From the IMG/VR virus record IMGVR_UViG_3300032308_001756, positions 1 to 34,733 of that record: a stretch of DNA of 34,733 nucleotides; one strand, written 5' to 3'. The position numbers and the translations under genes are program-made. Source of the stretch: a virus. Below the pieces are notes generated by a model. The model had not been told where the DNA came from. It did not search any database and saw only the letters and a program-made list of their open reading frames with translations. Below, piece after piece: positions 3,361 to 32,583 of this stretch. How positions within the stretch are numbered: the stretch's first letter is position 1; each line of letters opens with the position of its first letter.

Positions 3361-3372
3361 TATAAAAAATCT

Positions 3373-3606
3373 ATGTTAAAATTAGTTGAAATAGCGAAGG
3401 CTTGGATTATAGAAATGGATCCAACTGAAGAACAGCAAAAAATAGCTGAAGAAAGATTAACAATTTGTCAAGGTTGTGATTCACTGAAACAAGAACAAAA
3501 TACCGGAGTATATTATTGCGGTATATGTTATTGTCCCATTAAAAAAAAGATATACAGCCCTTTACCGGGTAAAGATGCTTGCCCATTAGCTAAATGGAAA
3601 GATTAA
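3373..3606 (+). CDS. Small zinc-ribbon-like protein (77 aa)
   Basis: The start is placed at the ATG at 3373 because the upstream TTG lies inside the promoter. Cysteines form two pairs plus two extra: C32-x2-C35, C49-x2-C52, C54 and C70 (in DACPLAKW), a pattern expected of a small zinc-binding fold. The N-terminal 30 residues are helical and acidic (EMDPTEEQQ). Similar short cysteine-rich proteins are common beside tail genes of large marine phages, but their role is not known. It has its own Bacteroidota-type promoter, so it may be expressed independently of the late genes. Confidence 0.7.
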   Translation: MLKLVEIAKAWIIEMDPTEEQQKIAEERLTICQGCDSLKQEQNTGVYYCGICYCPIKKKIYSPLPGKDACPLAKWKD

Positions 3607-3617
3607 AATAAAAAGTC

Positions 3618-3875
3618 ATGAAAAAGTTAACAGAACAAGAGTTATTAGAACTAAAAAATCTTAGACAAGAACATTATAGCACAGTATATGATATTGGCGA
3701 TGTTAATGTTAAAATAGAAGAGTACAATAAATTAATTCAAGAATTAGTAGAAGAAAAGACTGTATTATTGGGTAAATATGCTAACATATTACTCAAGGAA
3801 CAAGAGATGGCTAAGGGACTTTCCACCAAATATGGAGAGGGTCAAATAGACGTGGATACAGGAGAAATATCGTAG
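3618..3875 (+). CDS. Coiled-coil small protein (85 aa)
   Basis: Highly charged and predicted helical across residues 3-70 (LTEQELLELKNLRQEHYS..., IEEYNKLIQELVEEKT), ending in a GEGQIDVDTGEIS tail. Proteins with this plan, a coiled coil plus a short glycine/acidic tail, occur in T4-like marine phages as hypothetical proteins. Starts 11 nt after the zinc-ribbon gene and so is likely co-transcribed with it. Its location just before the sheath gene suggests a role in tail assembly, but that is inference. Confidence 0.65.
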   Translation: MKKLTEQELLELKNLRQEHYSTVYDIGDVNVKIEEYNKLIQELVEEKTVLLGKYANILLKEQEMAKGLSTKYGEGQIDVDTGEIS

Positions 3876-14165: not shown

Positions 14166-14696
14166 CAGCCGCCCCCTCAAACATTAGTGTTTATCTGTTT
14201 CGCTAACAGGAGGGGGGCTACAGGTTAACCATCCCTGTAAAATGTAGCACCACCATCGCTACATTCAAGGAAGTGTGTTTGTGTAAATGAAAAGAGGGCT
14301 TTCGAACAGCTCTATGACAGGGGCTGCATATTGTGGGCTAAAAGGTGGGGCTACATCATATACCAATGATGCCACTAATAACCCGTGCGACACGTGGCAC
14401 ATACCTAACAAATGTGTGTTCATAAGTGTGTAGTCGCACTATCCTAGAGGATGGAACAATGCCAAGTTCCTAATGAGGTGACCATTCGCATACCAGTGAA
14501 TGACTAACCATCTCAGTACCTTGTTTGACAGGTAGTGATAGATTACATCTCTTATCCCGTTGGAAGCACAGCAATCTGCAGACTCGCAGAATCAATAGTA
14601 CAGTGGTGTACTCCCCCGGGACGTAAAGGCCAAGGGAGACATATGCCTATGCAGGTCGTATGTCAGTCTTTACAATGTGTGGGAAAATCGCTAGTT

Positions 14697-14727
14697 CCTC
14701 TATGCTATACTAGGCATGGGGGTTTTC
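14697..14727 (+). terminator. Internal terminator-like hairpin in the RNA region
   Basis: CCTCTATGC (14697-14705) pairs with GCATGGGGG (14714-14722), 9 bp with three G-U pairs and an 8-nt loop, followed by TTTT-C-TG-TTTT. If active, it would define a first RNA of about 560 nt after the CDS and leave the downstream part to read-through or a separate start. Confidence 0.45.
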
Positions 14728-15477
14728 TGTTTTACGTTATACGTATTACAGCTACTTTTAGTAGGGCACACGCGGGGCAGGTACATGCAAACTAATAGCC
14801 ATTATACAATCGATTCGGAACAACCTACTAAAAAATTAAACAACCCACGTGCATGGAATTATCCGCCTTGCGTTTCCTGTTTTTTGCCTATCATAGCAAA
14901 ATCTAAGCAGTTAATGTAAGGGGGCTAAGATATTTTTATATCGTCATTTCCCTGCATGAGAAATCCTTTGCAAAGGTACTACAAGTGGAATGTAGTATCA
15001 ATGATAACACTAAGGTAGTGAATACGATAAATATGTGCGTATGGGTAATCATAGCCTACAGGTTTGGCTATTCCCCAGAATATGCCCCACTGATTCTTAA
15101 AAGCAACGTCATAGCCCAATGACGGTGAATTAGTTCGGGACTTGATTACCAATGAATATATGAGCTTGTTGGTATAGCTGGTGGCTTCGTACTGTAATAT
15201 GGTGAGGGGAATATATCACCGAATGAGTACGTCGTAGGAACCCAAAGAAAGAAAACGGGTATGAGGGATTCTATCCGTATTTTGCTATTGTTGTGTATGT
15301 CTGCACACATTAGTTTTTCAAGAGAAAACACGTAAGACAATATACATTATATACCTATGCTTATAGGGCTGCGTAATTTATTATAATTACAGCCATAAAA
15401 TAAAATAAGGCATATATAGGTATTATTATGTATAGAAAAATAGTTAGTATGAATTTAGTTTTATGCTAATTATTAGG

Positions 15478-15535
15478 CGGGGTAGATGGTCAAAGCCGGC
15501 TTAACCGGTACTTCGGTTCGATTCCGAATACCCCA
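15478..15535 (+). ncRNA. Minimal tRNA-like structure (no D arm) at the end of the RNA region
   Basis: GGGGTA (15479-15484) pairs with TACCCC (15529-15534) as an acceptor-like stem. TTCGG-TTCGATT-CCGAA (15512-15528) is a perfect T arm with the conserved TTCRA loop. Only 27 nt lie between them, and they hold one hairpin, GCCGG-CTTAA-CCGGT (15495-15509), instead of separate D and anticodon arms. At about 58 nt this is too short for a normal tRNA. It could be a tRNA mimic recognised by CCA-adding enzyme, RNase P or RNase Z, or a decayed tRNA. A further hairpin, CGACGC/GCGTTG, follows (15536-15550). Confidence 0.6.
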
Positions 15536-15587
15536 CGACGCATTGCGTTGATATATATTTGTTTGTTGGGGTTTAAGTTTGGTTGAT

Positions 15588-19271: not shown

Positions 19272-19379
19272 AGTCAGGTGGCGGAATTGGTAACCATAAG
19301 AGAAGCAAAGCTAATTAGTGTTGTTGTTGTTTATAAGTTGACCTAAGTAGAAGTGGTAATTAGTTGAGTTACCTAACTA
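19272..19379 (+). tRNA. Degenerate tRNA-like gene (Leu-type framework) with inserted helix
   Basis: The 5' part AGTCAGG-TGGCGGAATTGGT is that of the tRNA-like genes at 27422 and 30475, and 3' CCTAACT (19372-19378) pairs with AGTCAGG except for one mismatch. The interior differs: a 9-bp helix, AGCTAATTA/TAATTAGTT (19309-19317 with 19357-19365), replaces the anticodon and variable region, and the T arm lacks the GGTTCGAATCC core. GGTAAC/GTTACC (19289-19294 with 19368-19373) offers a competing fold. It is likely a pseudo-tRNA or a noncoding RNA derived from a tRNA, ending at the adjacent terminator. Confidence 0.4.
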
Positions 19380-27096: not shown

Positions 27097-27106
27097 ATTA
27101 AAAAAA

Positions 27107-27300
27107 GCAACCAACTGATTAACACTAGACAGTAATTATTTGGATTAATAATCCAAGAAGCCTTGGTAGAGGGTCCGTAGCTATCAATTACCTCACAGTT
27201 CTAAGATGTGAGTGGTTTAGGTTAACGTATGATACCAGTTACTGCTATCTGTAAACAGTCAGATTATCATATCCTACTTAGAAGGTAGTTGGTTGTTTTT
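27107..27300 (+). ncRNA. Multi-helix noncoding RNA (about 190 nt)
   Basis: GCAACCAACT (27107-27116) pairs with AGTTGGTTGT (27287-27296) as the closing stem, followed by a T run. Inside are CAGTAATT/AGTTACTG (27130-27137 with 27237-27244), TTGGATT/AATCCAA (27140-27156), GGTA/TACC (27164-27192), CTCACA/TGTGAG (27192-27212) and ATCTG/CAGAT (27247-27264). Most stems nest without conflict, giving a branched fold that ends in a terminator-like closing helix. I recognise no known family. It precedes a tRNA-like gene. Confidence 0.6.
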
Positions 27301-27351
27301 AAATTTAATTGTGACTACTAATTTATTATTAATAATTTAAATTATAACATA

Positions 27352-27421: not shown

Positions 27422-27508
27422 AGTCAGGTGGCGGAATGTTGGCCGTCTTAGAGAATGCGAACACTGCTAGAACTCAAGTGTGTACAGGTTCGAATCCTGT
27501 CCTGACTA
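27422..27508 (+). tRNA. tRNA-like gene, class II (Leu-type) framework, anticodon unclear
   Basis: 87 nt. The acceptor stem AGTCAGG/CCTGACT is perfect, the T arm ACAGG-TTCGAAT-CCTGT is perfect, and the discriminator is A. The 5' TGGCGGAAT is typical of tRNA-Leu. The region between is not standard: a GGC/GCC D stem is possible, CTTAGAG could be a loop with anticodon TAG (Leu) but its stem has mismatches, and ACACT/AGTGT (27461-27481) forms a strong helix where the variable arm should be. It is either a divergent tRNA-Leu or a tRNA-derived RNA. Confidence 0.6.
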
Positions 27509-27549
27509 CTAAACATTTTTTATTCATTAACAATCAAAAACAAAAAAAA

Positions 27550-28380
27550 ATGAAAATTTCCATCGACAAAGAGTTAGAAAAAATAACTCAAAAAAAGAAA
27601 GAAGAATCTAATCTCGATCCGGTAAAGGAAATGAAACTTTTGTTGGAAAGTAATTCTGTAGAAGACGCAAGAATCATTCGGCTTTTATCTGAGAATTCTC
27701 ATTTTAACCGAGTCGAAAAAGTGCGAGGTAATCAGATTGCATTAGAGAAAATGGAGAAAGACTTTGATGGTAAAGTTTACCATATAAATGAAATCAAAAA
27801 ACTCTGCGTTGATTACCGCCTTCGTTTTTTATCAAGTAAATATTATACCGGTTCTTACGATGTTGAAGTTGCGTCAAAAATCAAAGAGTTTTCTAAAAAT
27901 ACAAACTCTCCTATCGACGAGTATTCATTACCACGCAGGTATTTTATTATGGCCCCAGCAAGTATGTTTGAACTCAGAGAGACAAAATATATTTCTAAAG
28001 CGGAACTGAGAGCTCAAGAAGACCCGGCAATCTTTTTTAAGATTGATGAAAACCATTACCGATTGATTCATAAGTGGGGCAACGATTTCACGGTGTTCCG
28101 TTTTATCGAAGCTTTCCGTTGGAGAAATTGGTGGTCTCACCAATTATTTAATACGGCGACTATTATGCCTGTCGTATCTTTTCTGTACTTCCTTATATTC
28201 TTTAGTTCGCCAGCAGCTCAATTTGATAACCACCCATTGTTTAATGGTTTTACTATAATGGCGATAAGCTTTTTATTAGCTTTTATTTTCTGCGGTATTA
28301 GAACTCAAGATGAGGGTGTGCCAATAGCAGGGTTCTTTAATGAATCAAATTGGAACAGTGATAGTAAATTAAAAAGATAA
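27550..28380 (+). CDS. Membrane protein with cytosolic N-terminal domain (276 aa)
   Basis: The ATG at 27550 is chosen; upstream in-frame codons lie inside the tRNA-like gene. Residues 1-180 are soluble and highly charged (KELEKITQKKKEE, IRLLSENSHFNRVEKVRGNQ). They are followed by two hydrophobic helices (TIMPVVSFLYFLIFF and FTIMAISFLLAFIFCG) and a short tail. The WRNWWSHQLF segment before the first helix would lie at the membrane surface. No domain is recognised. Leader and position suggest expression with the downstream small genes. Confidence 0.6.
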   Translation: MKISIDKELEKITQKKKEESNLDPVKEMKLLLESNSVEDARIIRLLSENSHFNRVEKVRGNQIALEKMEKDFDGKVYHINEIKKLCVDYRLRFLSSKYYTGSYDVEVASKIKEFSKNTNSPIDEYSLPRRYFIMAPASMFELRETKYISKAELRAQEDPAIFFKIDENHYRLIHKWGNDFTVFRFIEAFRWRNWWSHQLFNTATIMPVVSFLYFLIFFSSPAAQFDNHPLFNGFTIMAISFLLAFIFCGIRTQDEGVPIAGFFNESNWNSDSKLKR

Positions 28381-28413
28381 TCAAATCAATTATTCAAAAT
28401 TTAAAAAAATAAA

Positions 28414-28698
28414 ATGAAAAAGTTTATTATTGTTTCTTACTTTATTCTAATGTTTTCATTGACTTACATTGGAGCAAAATCTGCTATCTTCATGCGGTTT
28501 TCTGATATTGAAATAAAAAATCGAGAGTCAGAACACACTCTAAATGATACCGAGATAGAAAAAAACCATATCGTAAAAGAAGAAGGTAAAAAAGTAGTTC
28601 AAGAAATTCATACTAAAGAAACTAGAACTAAAACTCTATACGGTTGGGATACAAAAATTGATACTGTATCTTCAGGATTTTTAAACCGTAGTGAATAA
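28414..28698 (+). CDS. Signal-anchored small protein (94 aa)
   Basis: MKKFIIVSYFILMFSLTYIG is a membrane anchor or uncleaved signal peptide. It is followed by a charged, probably periplasmic coiled-coil segment (EIKNRESEHTLNDTEIEKNH, EEGKKVVQEIHTKETRTK) and a short end. The architecture (TM plus short coiled coil) is reminiscent of inner-membrane spanin subunits, but no other lysis gene is identified nearby. Followed by a strong terminator. Confidence 0.55.
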   Translation: MKKFIIVSYFILMFSLTYIGAKSAIFMRFSDIEIKNRESEHTLNDTEIEKNHIVKEEGKKVVQEIHTKETRTKTLYGWDTKIDTVSSGFLNRSE

Positions 28699-28721
28699 TA
28701 TCATTTCGTTCGAAAACAAAT

Positions 28722-28764
28722 AAAAGTTAAGTACTGTTTATTATAGTGCTTAACTTTTATTTTT
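28722..28764 (+). terminator. Rho-independent terminator immediately before a tRNA-like gene
   Basis: AAAAGTTAAGTACT (28722-28735) pairs with AGTGCTTAACTTTT (28745-28758), 14 bp with one G-U, then ATTTTTGG. The tRNA-like gene begins at the very next bases, so the mature RNA must come from read-through or an internal start. Confidence 0.88.
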
Positions 28765-28847
28765 GGCTAGGTGGCGGAGTGGGATACGCATGGTAAGTCT
28801 ATTTTATATAGGCTCACCACACACAGGTTCGAATCCTGGACTAGCCG
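28765..28847 (+). tRNA. tRNA-like gene with an extended anticodon arm
   Basis: 83 nt. Acceptor GGCTAGG pairs with ACTAGCC (last pair mismatched), the D arm is GCG...CGC, and the T loop TTCGAAT sits on a CAGG/CCTG stem; discriminator G. The anticodon arm is abnormal: GGT-A-AGTCTAT pairs with ATAGGCT-C-ACC, an 11-bp arm (28791-28817) instead of 5 bp. If the usual 7-nt loop ATTTTAT is read, the anticodon would be TTT, but the framework is not that of tRNA-Lys. Identity unresolved. Confidence 0.55.
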
Positions 28848-28883
28848 CGAATATTTAGCAATTAATAATTTAATATAATAATT

Positions 28884-29180
28884 ATGAATGAATCTAATTT
28901 TTCTGAGATTCTTATTGATGAAAATATGAATTTTTCTATTCAAAGTAATACATACGTTACTTGTAAAGATAGATTAACATTAAGAACAGAAGGAGGTAAA
29001 GTTTTTGAACTAGAAGTAGATATTAAATCTAATTTCAAAGACATACCATCTGAGTATCAACATATTTTTGTAAGTATGATGACAGCAAAATACTGTTCAA
29101 TTGTAACTACAAGTAGTTCAAAAGAGTCCCCATTTGTTTATCAAAAAAAGAAAAACAAGTGGTATCAGTTCTGGAAATAA
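28884..29180 (+). CDS. Hypothetical protein (98 aa)
   Basis: MNESNFSEILIDENMNFSIQ, then a beta-rich segment (TYVTCKDRLTLRTEGGKVFE, LEVDIKSNF) and a basic end (YQKKKNKWYQFWK). Soluble; it looks like a compact beta fold. No recognised family. Confidence 0.57.
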   Translation: MNESNFSEILIDENMNFSIQSNTYVTCKDRLTLRTEGGKVFELEVDIKSNFKDIPSEYQHIFVSMMTAKYCSIVTTSSSKESPFVYQKKKNKWYQFWK

Positions 29181-29211
29181 ATTTTATATAACAATTAAAA
29201 CCTAAACAAAA

Positions 29212-29409
29212 ATGTCAAAGCAAAAAATCCTTAAAGAAAAAAAAGAATTATTAGCTGAATTGCAAAAAAAGAATGTTGAGGTTGTTGACCTTGCTGATGG
29301 TCATAACTACGAAGATATAAACACCGATATAAAAAACGGTAAATACAAAAATGCTATAACCATGGCCAATATAGACTCTTCGATAAAGGCGGATTATTTT
29401 TATTATTAA
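29212..29409 (+). CDS. Hypothetical protein (65 aa)
   Basis: A lysine-rich helix at the start (MSKQKILKEKKELLAELQKK) is followed by NVEVVDLADGHNYEDINTDI and a tail ending DYFYY. No motif. Located 21 nt upstream of the SPFH gene, with the A-rich leader typical here. Confidence 0.52.
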   Translation: MSKQKILKEKKELLAELQKKNVEVVDLADGHNYEDINTDIKNGKYKNAITMANIDSSIKADYFYY

Positions 29410-29430
29410 CAAAAAAAAACAAAAAAAGTT

Positions 29431-30360
29431 ATGATTGGAGTTTTAACATTCCTCATTGTAGGAATTATTTTATCGTTTATTTTTAAAATTTTTGATTCAG
29501 ACACATGGACAAAAAATGATGGGGAAGATTTTAAACCATTCGGGATATTTAAATTGCTGGGAGTAATACTTGTTTCAGCTTTTGCCGGTCTTATAATCCC
29601 CTATGACGTAGAAAGAGTGGATTCGGGTAAAGTCGCCATTCTTGTTGAAAATGTGGGAGACAATAAAGGTATGTCAAAAGTAGAGTATAAACGAGGATGG
29701 GTACTTTATAATTCATTCACCCAACGTTACTATGAATTCCCGGTATATCAACAACATATTGATTACGAAGAAAACACAGTAATTACCAGAGGAGGATTTC
29801 AAGCTACGATTAAACCAAGCTTTAACTATTCTTTAAATCCCACAACGGTAGATCAAATGTTTCAGAACTTGCGATTAGATATTAAGCAAGTAGAACAAGG
29901 ATGGCTAAAGAATGCTATCATATCATCTGTCAATGACGTAGCTAACTTATTTACTGTAGATTCAATCTTTAATCATAGAGCAGAATTTGAAGCAGCTATT
30001 GTTACGGAGTGCAATAAGAGGATAGGAAAATGGTTTACAGTATCACAGTTAAGAACTAATATCGCACCACCTCCAGCTATTACAAAAGCTATTGAAGAAA
30101 AAACAACAGCTGTGCAAGAAGCACAAGCAGCTATAATGCGAAAAACAGTTGCTGAAGCAGAAGCACAAGAGAAAATAGCAAGAGCTAAGGGTGATTCAGC
30201 AGAAGCTGTTATTGCTGCTTCGGGAGAAGCTAACGCTATTAAATTAAAACAGTTATCTTTGACCCCGGAATACATTGAGTTTATACGTGTAACTAGATGG
30301 GATGGTAAGTATCCTACTACTGTAGCAGGTAACGCTAATTTCTTATTGGGTCTGAAATAA
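29431..30360 (+). CDS. SPFH/prohibitin-like membrane protein (309 aa)
   Basis: An N-terminal helix (IGVLTFLIVGIILSFIFKIF) and a second hydrophobic segment (LLGVILVSAFAGLIIPYDV) are followed by an SPFH (band 7) domain from about residue 66: VDSGKVAILVENVG, GWVLYNSFTQRYYEFPVYQQ, FQATIKPSFNYSLNP. A long Ala/Glu-rich coiled coil (about 215-280) contains KTVAEAEAQEKIARAKGDSA, and the chain ends LLGLK. These proteins oligomerise into membrane scaffolds and often restrain membrane proteases such as FtsH. Phage versions may protect phage proteins or remodel the host membrane, which is inference. Confidence 0.82.
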   Translation: MIGVLTFLIVGIILSFIFKIFDSDTWTKNDGEDFKPFGIFKLLGVILVSAFAGLIIPYDVERVDSGKVAILVENVGDNKGMSKVEYKRGWVLYNSFTQRYYEFPVYQQHIDYEENTVITRGGFQATIKPSFNYSLNPTTVDQMFQNLRLDIKQVEQGWLKNAIISSVNDVANLFTVDSIFNHRAEFEAAIVTECNKRIGKWFTVSQLRTNIAPPPAITKAIEEKTTAVQEAQAAIMRKTVAEAEAQEKIARAKGDSAEAVIAASGEANAIKLKQLSLTPEYIEFIRVTRWDGKYPTTVAGNANFLLGLK

Positions 30361-30474
30361 CAAATCAGAAGAGTTATATTATACATGGTTATAGATAATA
30401 TTTTTAACTAAACCAATATCGGGAATTGAAAGGGATAATAGAGCTCTCCACACTCAAATTTAGTTAGAAAGGTT

Positions 30475-30551
30475 AGTCAGGTGGCTGAATTGGTGACAGA
30501 GGCACTCCGTTAAACAACGGGTGGATGCAGGTTCGAATCCTGTCCTGATTA
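30475..30551 (+). tRNA. tRNA-like gene with a lengthened anticodon arm
   Basis: 77 nt. Acceptor AGTCAGG/CCTGATT, D stem CTG/CAG, and T arm GCAGG-TTCGAAT-CCTGT are all present, with discriminator A. In place of a 5-bp/7-nt anticodon arm, CAC-T-CCGTT pairs with AACGG-GTG around an AAAC loop (about 30500-30522). TAA (Leu) could be read within GTTAAAC only if the upper stem opens. Framework is shared with 27422 and 30796. Confidence 0.6.
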
Positions 30552-30576
30552 CTAATTATTAAAAAATAAAACAAAA

Positions 30577-30789
30577 ATGAAAAATAAAGAATTGCTTATC
30601 AATGCTTTAAACACTTTATTTTGGTCGTTTGGAAGCGAACCCCCACCCGAAGTAGTTTGGGGAGCAAATGAACTACTTGTTTGGATTGAAAATGAATACA
30701 ATGTAAAATTTAAAAATCATTTCACAGAAGATACATCAACACTGAATGATGATTTTAATAAGGTTATCGAAGAAATTAAATCTATGTAA
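30577..30789 (+). CDS. Hypothetical protein (70 aa)
   Basis: MKNKELLINALNTLFWSFGS, then EPPPEVVWGANELLVWIENE and an acidic helical end. The chain looks fully helical and soluble. It lies between two tRNA-like genes with only a few bases on either side. No known motif. Confidence 0.55.
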   Translation: MKNKELLINALNTLFWSFGSEPPPEVVWGANELLVWIENEYNVKFKNHFTEDTSTLNDDFNKVIEEIKSM

Positions 30790-30795
30790 AACAAT

Positions 30796-30909
30796 GGTCA
30801 GGTGGCGGAATGGTAGACGCTGAATGATAAAGTAGAGTCCAGACCCAGTTGGAGGAAATTAATTTCGATAGGTGTACAACTAATACAGGTTCGAATCCTG
30901 TCCTGACTA
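30796..30909 (+). tRNA. Oversized tRNA-like gene (114 nt), Leu-type framework
   Basis: Acceptor GGTCAGG/CCTGACT (one G-U) is present, together with a canonical class II D arm GCG-GAATGGTAGA-CGC (30805-30820). The T arm is ACAGG-like, TTCGAAT-CCTGT, with an A before it, and the discriminator is A. Between the D and T arms lie about 65 nt instead of about 32, with GAAATT/AATTTC (30856-30867) and AGTTG/CAACT pairing inside. No 7-nt anticodon loop can be placed with confidence. It could be a tRNA with an insertion, or a tRNA-derived RNA. Confidence 0.5.
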
Positions 30910-30933
30910 CTTAAAATAAAAAAACTAAAAATA

Positions 30934-31515: not shown

Positions 31516-32583
31516 ATGAATTTAGCAAGCGTACAAAAAATAATTAAAATAACTGCTATTGAAGGCGCAGACTTTATTGAGACAGCCACCGTATTAGGTT
31601 GGGAAATCGTTGTTAAAAAAGGGGAATTTAAAGTAGGTGATTTATGTTCTTACATTCAGATTGATACTGTCGTACCAGAATTACCAGAGTTTGAATTTTT
31701 AAGGGAAAGAAAATTTAGAGTAAGAACTATAAAACTTCGTAAGCAAATTTCACAAGGATTGGTAATACCATTACCAGAAGGAAAATGGAAAGAAGGAGAT
31801 GATGTTACAGAAGTTATTGGTGTTAAAAAATATGAAAAGCCGGATAACAATCCAGATAGGTATGAAAAACCGAGGATGCCTAAAAAATGGTATAAAAGAT
31901 TAATTTACTTATTTAAGTATAATCTTCTTTACAAAATGTTTCCTGGATTGCAAAAATCAAATCGTTCACCCTTTCCTAGAAATCTGGTATCAATTACTGA
32001 TGAGGAAAGAATACAAAACATTCCGCAAGTTTTAACTCAATATGCCGGCAAATTATTTGTAGTTAGCTATAAACTTGATGGAAGCAGTATTACTATTATT
32101 CATTCTGAATTTCTAAATAAAAGTTATTTTAGAATATGCAGTAGAAGATTTGAATTACATAACAAAAATAATGACTGGCATAAAGTTTTTATAGATACCA
32201 ATTTTCAAAAAGAAATTCTAAAACTTGTCAGGTATTACAAAACCAATGATATAATTGTTCAAGGTGAAGCCGTAGGTAAATTTAATGGCAATCATCATAA
32301 CTTACAAAGAAATGAAATTAGATTGTTCAATATCTATGTTAATGGGAAAAGATTAAATCAACAAGAGTTTATTCAAGTTTGTTTAATGTTAGAAATTCCC
32401 CATTGCCCAATTTATAAAAAAATTGTTTTAAATCATACGCTGCCTGAGATATTAAAATTATCTGAGATAAAAGATATACTTAATCCGGCTGTTGATGCAG
32501 AGGGATTAGTTTGGCGTTGTGTTGAAGATAATTTAAGTTTTAAAGTTATCAATAATAAATACCTTATTAAAAATAACGAATAG
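31516..32583 (+). CDS. RNA ligase (DRB0094-like family)
   Basis: 355 residues. An N-terminal OB-like region (about 1-100: IETATVLGWEIVVKKGEFKV, GDLCSYIQIDTVVPE, FRVRTIKLRKQISQGLVIPL) is followed by the nucleotidyltransferase domain. That domain has motif I K186-L-D-G (SYKLDGSS, the adenylated lysine), a following RICSRRFEL strand, Q249-G-E, FNIYV, motif IV E329-GLVWR and motif V SFKV (K343). This order, with the N-terminal extra domain, fits the Deinococcus RnlA/DRB0094 branch of RNA ligases that seal nicked RNA. It sits in a tRNA-rich stretch, so repair of cleaved tRNA is a plausible role. Confidence 0.85.
   Translation: MNLASVQKIIKITAIEGADFIETATVLGWEIVVKKGEFKVGDLCSYIQIDTVVPELPEFEFLRERKFRVRTIKLRKQISQGLVIPLPEGKWKEGDDVTEVIGVKKYEKPDNNPDRYEKPRMPKKWYKRLIYLFKYNLLYKMFPGLQKSNRSPFPRNLVSITDEERIQNIPQVLTQYAGKLFVVSYKLDGSSITIIHSEFLNKSYFRICSRRFELHNKNNDWHKVFIDTNFQKEILKLVRYYKTNDIIVQGEAVGKFNGNHHNLQRNEIRLFNIYVNGKRLNQQEFIQVCLMLEIPHCPIYKKIVLNHTLPEILKLSEIKDILNPAVDAEGLVWRCVEDNLSFKVINNKYLIKNNE

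Follow-up and report, generated by a model that had tools for sequence, protein, structure and literature searches.

Record IMGVR_UViG_3300032308_001756 of the virus database IMG/VR is a 34.7-kb sequence, which we analyzed over its full length of 34,733 nucleotides (nt) and refer to as the window. Three genes in it, starting at positions 27422, 30475 and 30796, have the ends of transfer RNA (tRNA) genes and very different sequences between their D and T arms. We wanted to know whether these genes encode tRNAs with unusual anticodon arms, decayed tRNAs, or RNAs of another kind. The analyses described below indicate that they very probably belong to an extensive family of phage RNAs that are built on a tRNA scaffold but do not decode. 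In these elements the anticodon and variable arms are replaced by a modular structured domain, often containing a helix that abuts the T arm together with a pseudoknot.

The original prediction, made from the sequence of the window alone, was that the three genes have one framework and different interiors, and this is indeed the case. The Rfam tRNA model gives the three genes, in the order of their positions, scores of 35.6, 36.7 and 38.1 bits (E-values of 1e-4 to 5e-4 for the window), and it scores the ordinary tRNA-Met and tRNA-Glu genes of the same window at 62 bits. The program ARAGORN identified the first gene as tRNA-Leu(tag), reported the second as “tRNA-???”, its anticodon being 4 nt long, and missed the third. 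The common framework, AGTCAGG/GGTCAGG-TGGC.GAAT...CAGGTTCGAATCCTGTCCTGAYT, comprises the acceptor and the D and T arms, and the interiors, extending from the D arm to the T arm, are about 27-64 nt long and mutually unrelated. All three elements are located on the plus strand. Element A, a tRNA-like RNA without an anticodon arm, spans positions 27422..27509 (body 27422-27507, A73 at 27508 and C74 at 27509); it has the acceptor AGTCAGG/CCTGACT and an A15:T48 pair, and no known relative of its interior was found. Element B spans positions 30475..30552 (body 30475-30550, followed by A73 and C74), and its interior, for which one close relative was found (L381), forms an extended hairpin with four loop nucleotides (CAC-CCGTT-AAAC-AACGG-GTG). 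Element C spans positions 30796..30910 (body 30796-30908, followed by A73 and C74); its 64-nt interior has relatives in four other loci (L053, L378, L379 and L380), and among these the D stem and an interior hairpin show compensatory changes.

To determine how widespread such elements are, IMG/VR was searched with a pattern that fixes only the ends, and two further scans were anchored on the 5' half, or on the D and T arms, leaving the acceptor free. The ends-only pattern matches at least 119 other viral stretches of IMG/VR; because the same framework recurs in all of these, its chance origin in the window is excluded. Together, the three scans yielded at least 422 elements in at least 233 viral stretches. 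The elements are 61-209 nt long, and up to at least 11 of them are present per stretch, or up to at least 14 sites per record when counted by the 3' half alone. We also considered the possibility that the elements originate from host tRNAs. This was rejected: allowing one mismatch, the 3' half was found in none of 295 sampled Bacteroidota genomes, apart from the metagenome-assembled genome (MAG) used as centre, and among the 84,980 species genomes of GTDB the framework is present only in two short MAG contigs. Of the 50,697 phage records of INPHARED, none matched the window region used as query, and the element query was matched only in part, the annotated matches being ordinary tRNAs. A description of the family was not found in the open-access literature, subscription journals being outside the search. 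Such small RNA genes, present in many uncultured phages, point to an extensive and seemingly undescribed kind of phage RNA whose role is not decoding.

Next, the tRNA framework of the elements was analyzed. The 7-bp acceptor and the 5-bp T stem with its TTCGANT loop have standard pairs in 96-100% of 249 elements. As the first scans fixed part of the acceptor, pairing was rechecked with the two other anchors. Using the 5'-half anchor, the 3' half was present at 72 of 76 new sites. With the D and T arms as anchor and the acceptor free, 39 of 67 sites had a TCAGG-type acceptor, and 12 had one of nine other acceptors that are complementary in seven of seven positions. The elements also retain the D arm and the elbow tertiary pair 15:48 (Levitt pair) of a decoding tRNA, and the latter covaries: A15:T48 is present in 219 of the 249 elements, and all six elements with G15 have G15:C48. 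The acceptor AGTCAGG is common in the family, and in five loci nearly all non-canonical matches to the Rfam tRNA model have an acceptor of this type, with the exception of L188:7918 (TGGCTAT). The idea that AGTCAGG is an invariant identity tag was nevertheless weakened by the acceptor-free scan, which revealed other acceptors on the same interiors. Moreover, acceptors shift in concert within one phage (AGTCCTG/AGTCTTG in G022 and TGTGTGG/AGTGTGG in G025).

What the elements lack is the decoding arm. Even under a relaxed definition (four of five pairs, a 7-nt loop and U33), an anticodon arm was detected in only 4.6% of 431 elements; the share was 98% for 147 genuine tRNAs and 2.9% for shuffled interiors. 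A small number of genes with AGTCAGG have an ordinary appearance, one being tRNA-Lys-like and one tRNA-Pro-like. Besides, an otherwise ordinary tRNA-Ile(tat) gene with an AGTCAGG/CCTGACT acceptor was observed on the minus strand in two loci (L250 near 8843 and L286 near 6644); in other phages the acceptor of this tRNA is GCTCTCG.

The interiors that take the place of the missing arm are extremely diverse. Clustering of 248 elements resulted in 157 interior sequence clusters, 126 of them singletons, and a larger set of 593 bodies, which includes some ordinary tRNAs, gave 390 clusters. Several lines of evidence suggest that these interiors are structured. Compared with dinucleotide shuffles of 109 distinct interiors (null 0.50 +/- 0.03), a helix with its 3' strand directly adjoining the T arm has a mean rank of 0.71, and a pseudoknot built on this helix a mean rank of 0.75. 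Furthermore, three interior families covary. In the first, this helix is 100% paired despite six double changes in five sequences; in the second, which is pseudoknotted, the helix abutting the T arm has three double changes; and in the third, an 8-bp arm has double changes in five pairs. The original prediction is borne out in two points: the ends and the anticodon side evolve differently, and, as the covariation indicates, the interiors are maintained by selection.

Interiors and frameworks also occur in different combinations. One interior is found on different acceptors (L245 with L007 and L071, and L254 with L114 and L123), and a D-loop insert of about 34 nt is found with two unrelated interiors. 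These two observations indicate that parts are exchanged between elements and that the modules recombine. Taken by their sequences, the elements look like functional RNAs and not like decayed tRNAs.

Some observations limit these interpretations. Nested alternatives likewise rank above shuffles (0.71), and hence the pseudoknot is favoured, not proved, as the general interior fold; a universal pseudoknot is too strong a claim, as some families use a long nested hairpin. In the second covarying family, the other helix of the pseudoknot varies on one side only, and because the interior families are small the covariation is limited. In addition, no motif common to the interiors was found, except for a displaced D-arm sequence in elements with D-loop inserts, and no known RNA family was detected inside them in Rfam at E-values up to 1.

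The sequences flanking the elements and their genomic context may give an indication of how they are expressed. Position -1 is T in 82% of the 249 elements, position 73 is A in 91% and G in 8%, position 74 is C in 100%, and CCA is not encoded. Genuine tRNA genes of the same loci have the same marks (C74 in 326 of 335 and T at -1 in 238 of 335), and these do not encode CCA either. The elements are intergenic, 6% being covered by reading frames of at least 80 codons versus 58% for random places, and in all 106 stretches containing two or more elements these are on one strand. No conserved promoter or terminator was seen around them. In the six loci examined, the elements lie within or next to large groups of ordinary phage tRNA genes, and the phages bearing them carry near-complete ordinary tRNA sets. 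Since the elements bear tRNA-type flanking marks, we infer that they would be transcribed within polycistronic messages, from which RNase P and the pathway of tRNA 3' processing would release them; they would then be tailed with CCA and might persist as stable RNAs.

As to their function, we tentatively propose that the elements imitate the tRNA surface recognized by a host factor at the acceptor, T arm or elbow, and thereby act as decoy or inhibitor. Candidate factors would be a tRNA-directed defence enzyme or toxin, a synthetase or a translation factor, and, with low confidence, an arms race might set the fast change of the central domain. An example of tRNA-directed immunity acting on that end of the molecule is Cas12a3, which engages the acceptor stem together with the T arm and the CCA tail (PMC12851939). 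A decoy had also been suggested in the original prediction, acting on host anticodon nucleases; this is not supported for the anticodon loops, and only in the wider sense of enzymes gripping the acceptor, T arm or elbow is it part of our best guess.

An unlikely alternative is that the elements merely punctuate messages, serving as RNase P and RNase Z cut sites between phage genes, with the interior as filler. Mitochondrial transcripts are punctuated by tRNAs in this way, and the intergenic and co-directional location of the elements, the lack of a promoter or terminator of their own and their tRNA-type processing marks all agree with such a role. However, the helices of the interiors covary and the interiors are conserved across phages, and cutting needs neither hundreds of interiors nor D-loop inserts.

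A rather improbable alternative, yet a serious rival, is that the elements are aminoacyl carriers, which would be charged without being able to decode and would supply or sequester aminoacyl-tRNA for non-ribosomal use. Leucine would be the probable amino acid, because recognition by leucyl-tRNA synthetase is independent of the anticodon, and the D arm (TGGCGGAATTGGTAGACGC), A73 and A15:U48 (A15:T48 in the DNA) are of the leucine type. On the other hand, G73 in 8% of the elements and several D arms of other types are contrary to leucylation as a general rule, and the diverse structured interiors would be left without a reason.

It is also improbable that the elements are tRNA-scaffolded antisense RNAs, whose interiors would pair with messages of the phage or the host. 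The combination of a hypervariable insert with a scaffold that is constant and processed does resemble the engineered tRNA scaffold used for RNA stabilization, but the interiors are largely folded. Pairing with the phage's own genome was rejected, as the longest complements were no longer than those of shuffled interiors (30 elements in three records).

A faint possibility is that the elements are tRNA genes in decay, with recombination among the copies keeping their ends similar. The concerted change of acceptors within a phage and the swapping of modules would be in line with it, as would the partly degenerate appearance of a site at 19272 (see below), for which alone decay may be a fitting description. 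For the family it is not, because compensatory changes are present in the acceptor, in pair 15:48 and in the interiors, because interiors are shared by different acceptors, and because no genuine decay series was found. Finally, it is very improbable that the elements are functional tRNAs with unrecognized tiny introns or with anticodon arms altered against anticodon nucleases, both put forward in the original prediction: although phage tRNAs with anticodon-loop escape mutations have been proposed (PMC10264068), 95% of the elements have no anticodon arm to protect and ordinary tRNA sets are present alongside, no group I, group II or other intron family was matched at E-values up to 1, and the interiors lack a common boundary motif.

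We then compared the elements with known systems. The closest known analogue is RNA C (species 1 RNA) of phage T4, located at 70908-71046 of NC_000866 (909-1047 of our locus L374) with RNA D beside it; both are late RNAs of unknown function according to a 2022 study (PMC9697503). Like the elements, RNA C is encoded in a phage tRNA cluster and combines a T arm and an acceptor-like stem with a large non-tRNA middle. Its T stem and acceptor show compensatory changes between T4, EcL8g and fHe-Yen9-01. Over 32 nt, its 3' end matches a tRNA-Asn region of phage AV115 exactly, which suggests that RNA C descends from a tRNA. Unlike the elements, it is one sequence family in Tevenvirinae with acceptor mismatches in T4, and it has neither a leucine-type D arm nor a multi-copy hypervariable set. 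No RNA C-like interior was seen among the element clusters by eye, no formal comparison being made, and the likeness concerns the architecture.

Transfer-messenger RNA (tmRNA) resembles the elements in having a tRNA-like end domain and pseudoknots and no anticodon arm. It has an alanine-type acceptor, an mRNA-like tag frame and a length of some 350 nt; the elements are shorter, and they did not match the tmRNA model RF00023 at E-values up to 1. GOLLD RNA is, like the elements, a phage RNA found beside tRNA genes, but it is large (the Rfam model has 416 positions) and has no such tRNA framework. One element-bearing phage (L190) contains a GOLLD RNA (262 bits) at 3366-3783, and also the 3' end of a separate phage tmRNA at 1-66. 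Allo-tRNAs and irregular tRNAs from soil metagenomes are, as the elements are, non-canonical tRNA genes known mainly from metagenomes, and for some of them neither charging nor use by E. coli was possible; however, the acceptor domain of allo-tRNAs comprises 12 bp (8/4 or 9/3) and an anticodon is kept, whereas the elements are of the 7/5 type without an anticodon arm, and the review on allo-tRNAs does not mention phages (PMC7609411). Phage tRNAs that evade anticodon nucleases are altered on the anticodon side but keep the decoding arm (PMC10264068), which the elements lack.

Two weaker members are present in the window, both on the plus strand. The first (28765..28848) has the acceptor GGCTAGG/ACTAGCC with one mismatch, G15:C48 and C74, and scores only 24.2 bits with the Rfam tRNA model, which is below the cut-off. 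It had been described as an unrelated gene with an 11-bp anticodon arm. According to its fold, an extended 11-bp hairpin (4+7 bp, one mismatch) is indeed present where the anticodon arm would be, but since the D-arm and T-arm sequences and G15:C48 are in common with the elements, we read it as a probable divergent relative. The second (19272..19378), a degenerate or divergent member, consists of the 5' half AGTCAGGTGGCGGAAT and a pairable 3' strand CCTAACT (one mismatch); its T arm is replaced, and a terminator-like hairpin comes after it. Similar 5'-only sites occur elsewhere, as 4 of the 76 5'-anchored sites lack the 3' half.

The window encodes a contractile-tail module with a tail sheath (1.9e-68) and a tail tube, and about half of the tail sheath aligns at 48% identity to its counterpart in the Flavobacterium phage immuto group. 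Just downstream of the elements, at 31516-32583, there is a gene for an RNA ligase (PHROG 968, 1.2e-61), which might serve in RNA repair. Other putative structured RNAs were also observed. No credible reading frame is present in the region 14170-15480 (about 1.3 kb), which folds 3.8 standard deviations better than 20 shuffles and had no match in Rfam, phage records or the collected element loci; it is a candidate giant noncoding RNA. At 15479-15536 there is a sequence of about 56 nt that resembles a tRNA lacking the D arm, with the acceptor GGGGTA/TACCCC, the T arm TTCGG-TTCGATT-CCGAA, one hairpin, and A and C at the places of A73 and C74, which was called neither by ARAGORN nor by Rfam. Finally, positions 27100-27305 contain an intergenic structured RNA with a long closing stem (z -3.5), which has blastn relatives in four element-bearing contigs (L343, L041, L246 and L363).

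A broader and equally tentative interpretation is that the elements constitute a hitherto unrecognized modular phage RNA system, in which an end-and-elbow cassette, with an acceptor common within a phage, would carry hundreds of exchangeable domains. A phage would then possess up to about a dozen of these RNAs as its repertoire for counter-defence or host takeover, of which T4 RNA C might be a long-known single member; in any case the elements provide comparative material for T4 RNA C. tRNA-finding programs either miss such elements or call them odd or undetermined tRNAs. If “phage tRNAs” by the hundreds are unable to decode, arguments on phage tRNAs and codon use need correcting, and the elements represent a new and large reservoir of phage RNAs, which probably interact with the tRNA-handling machinery of the host.

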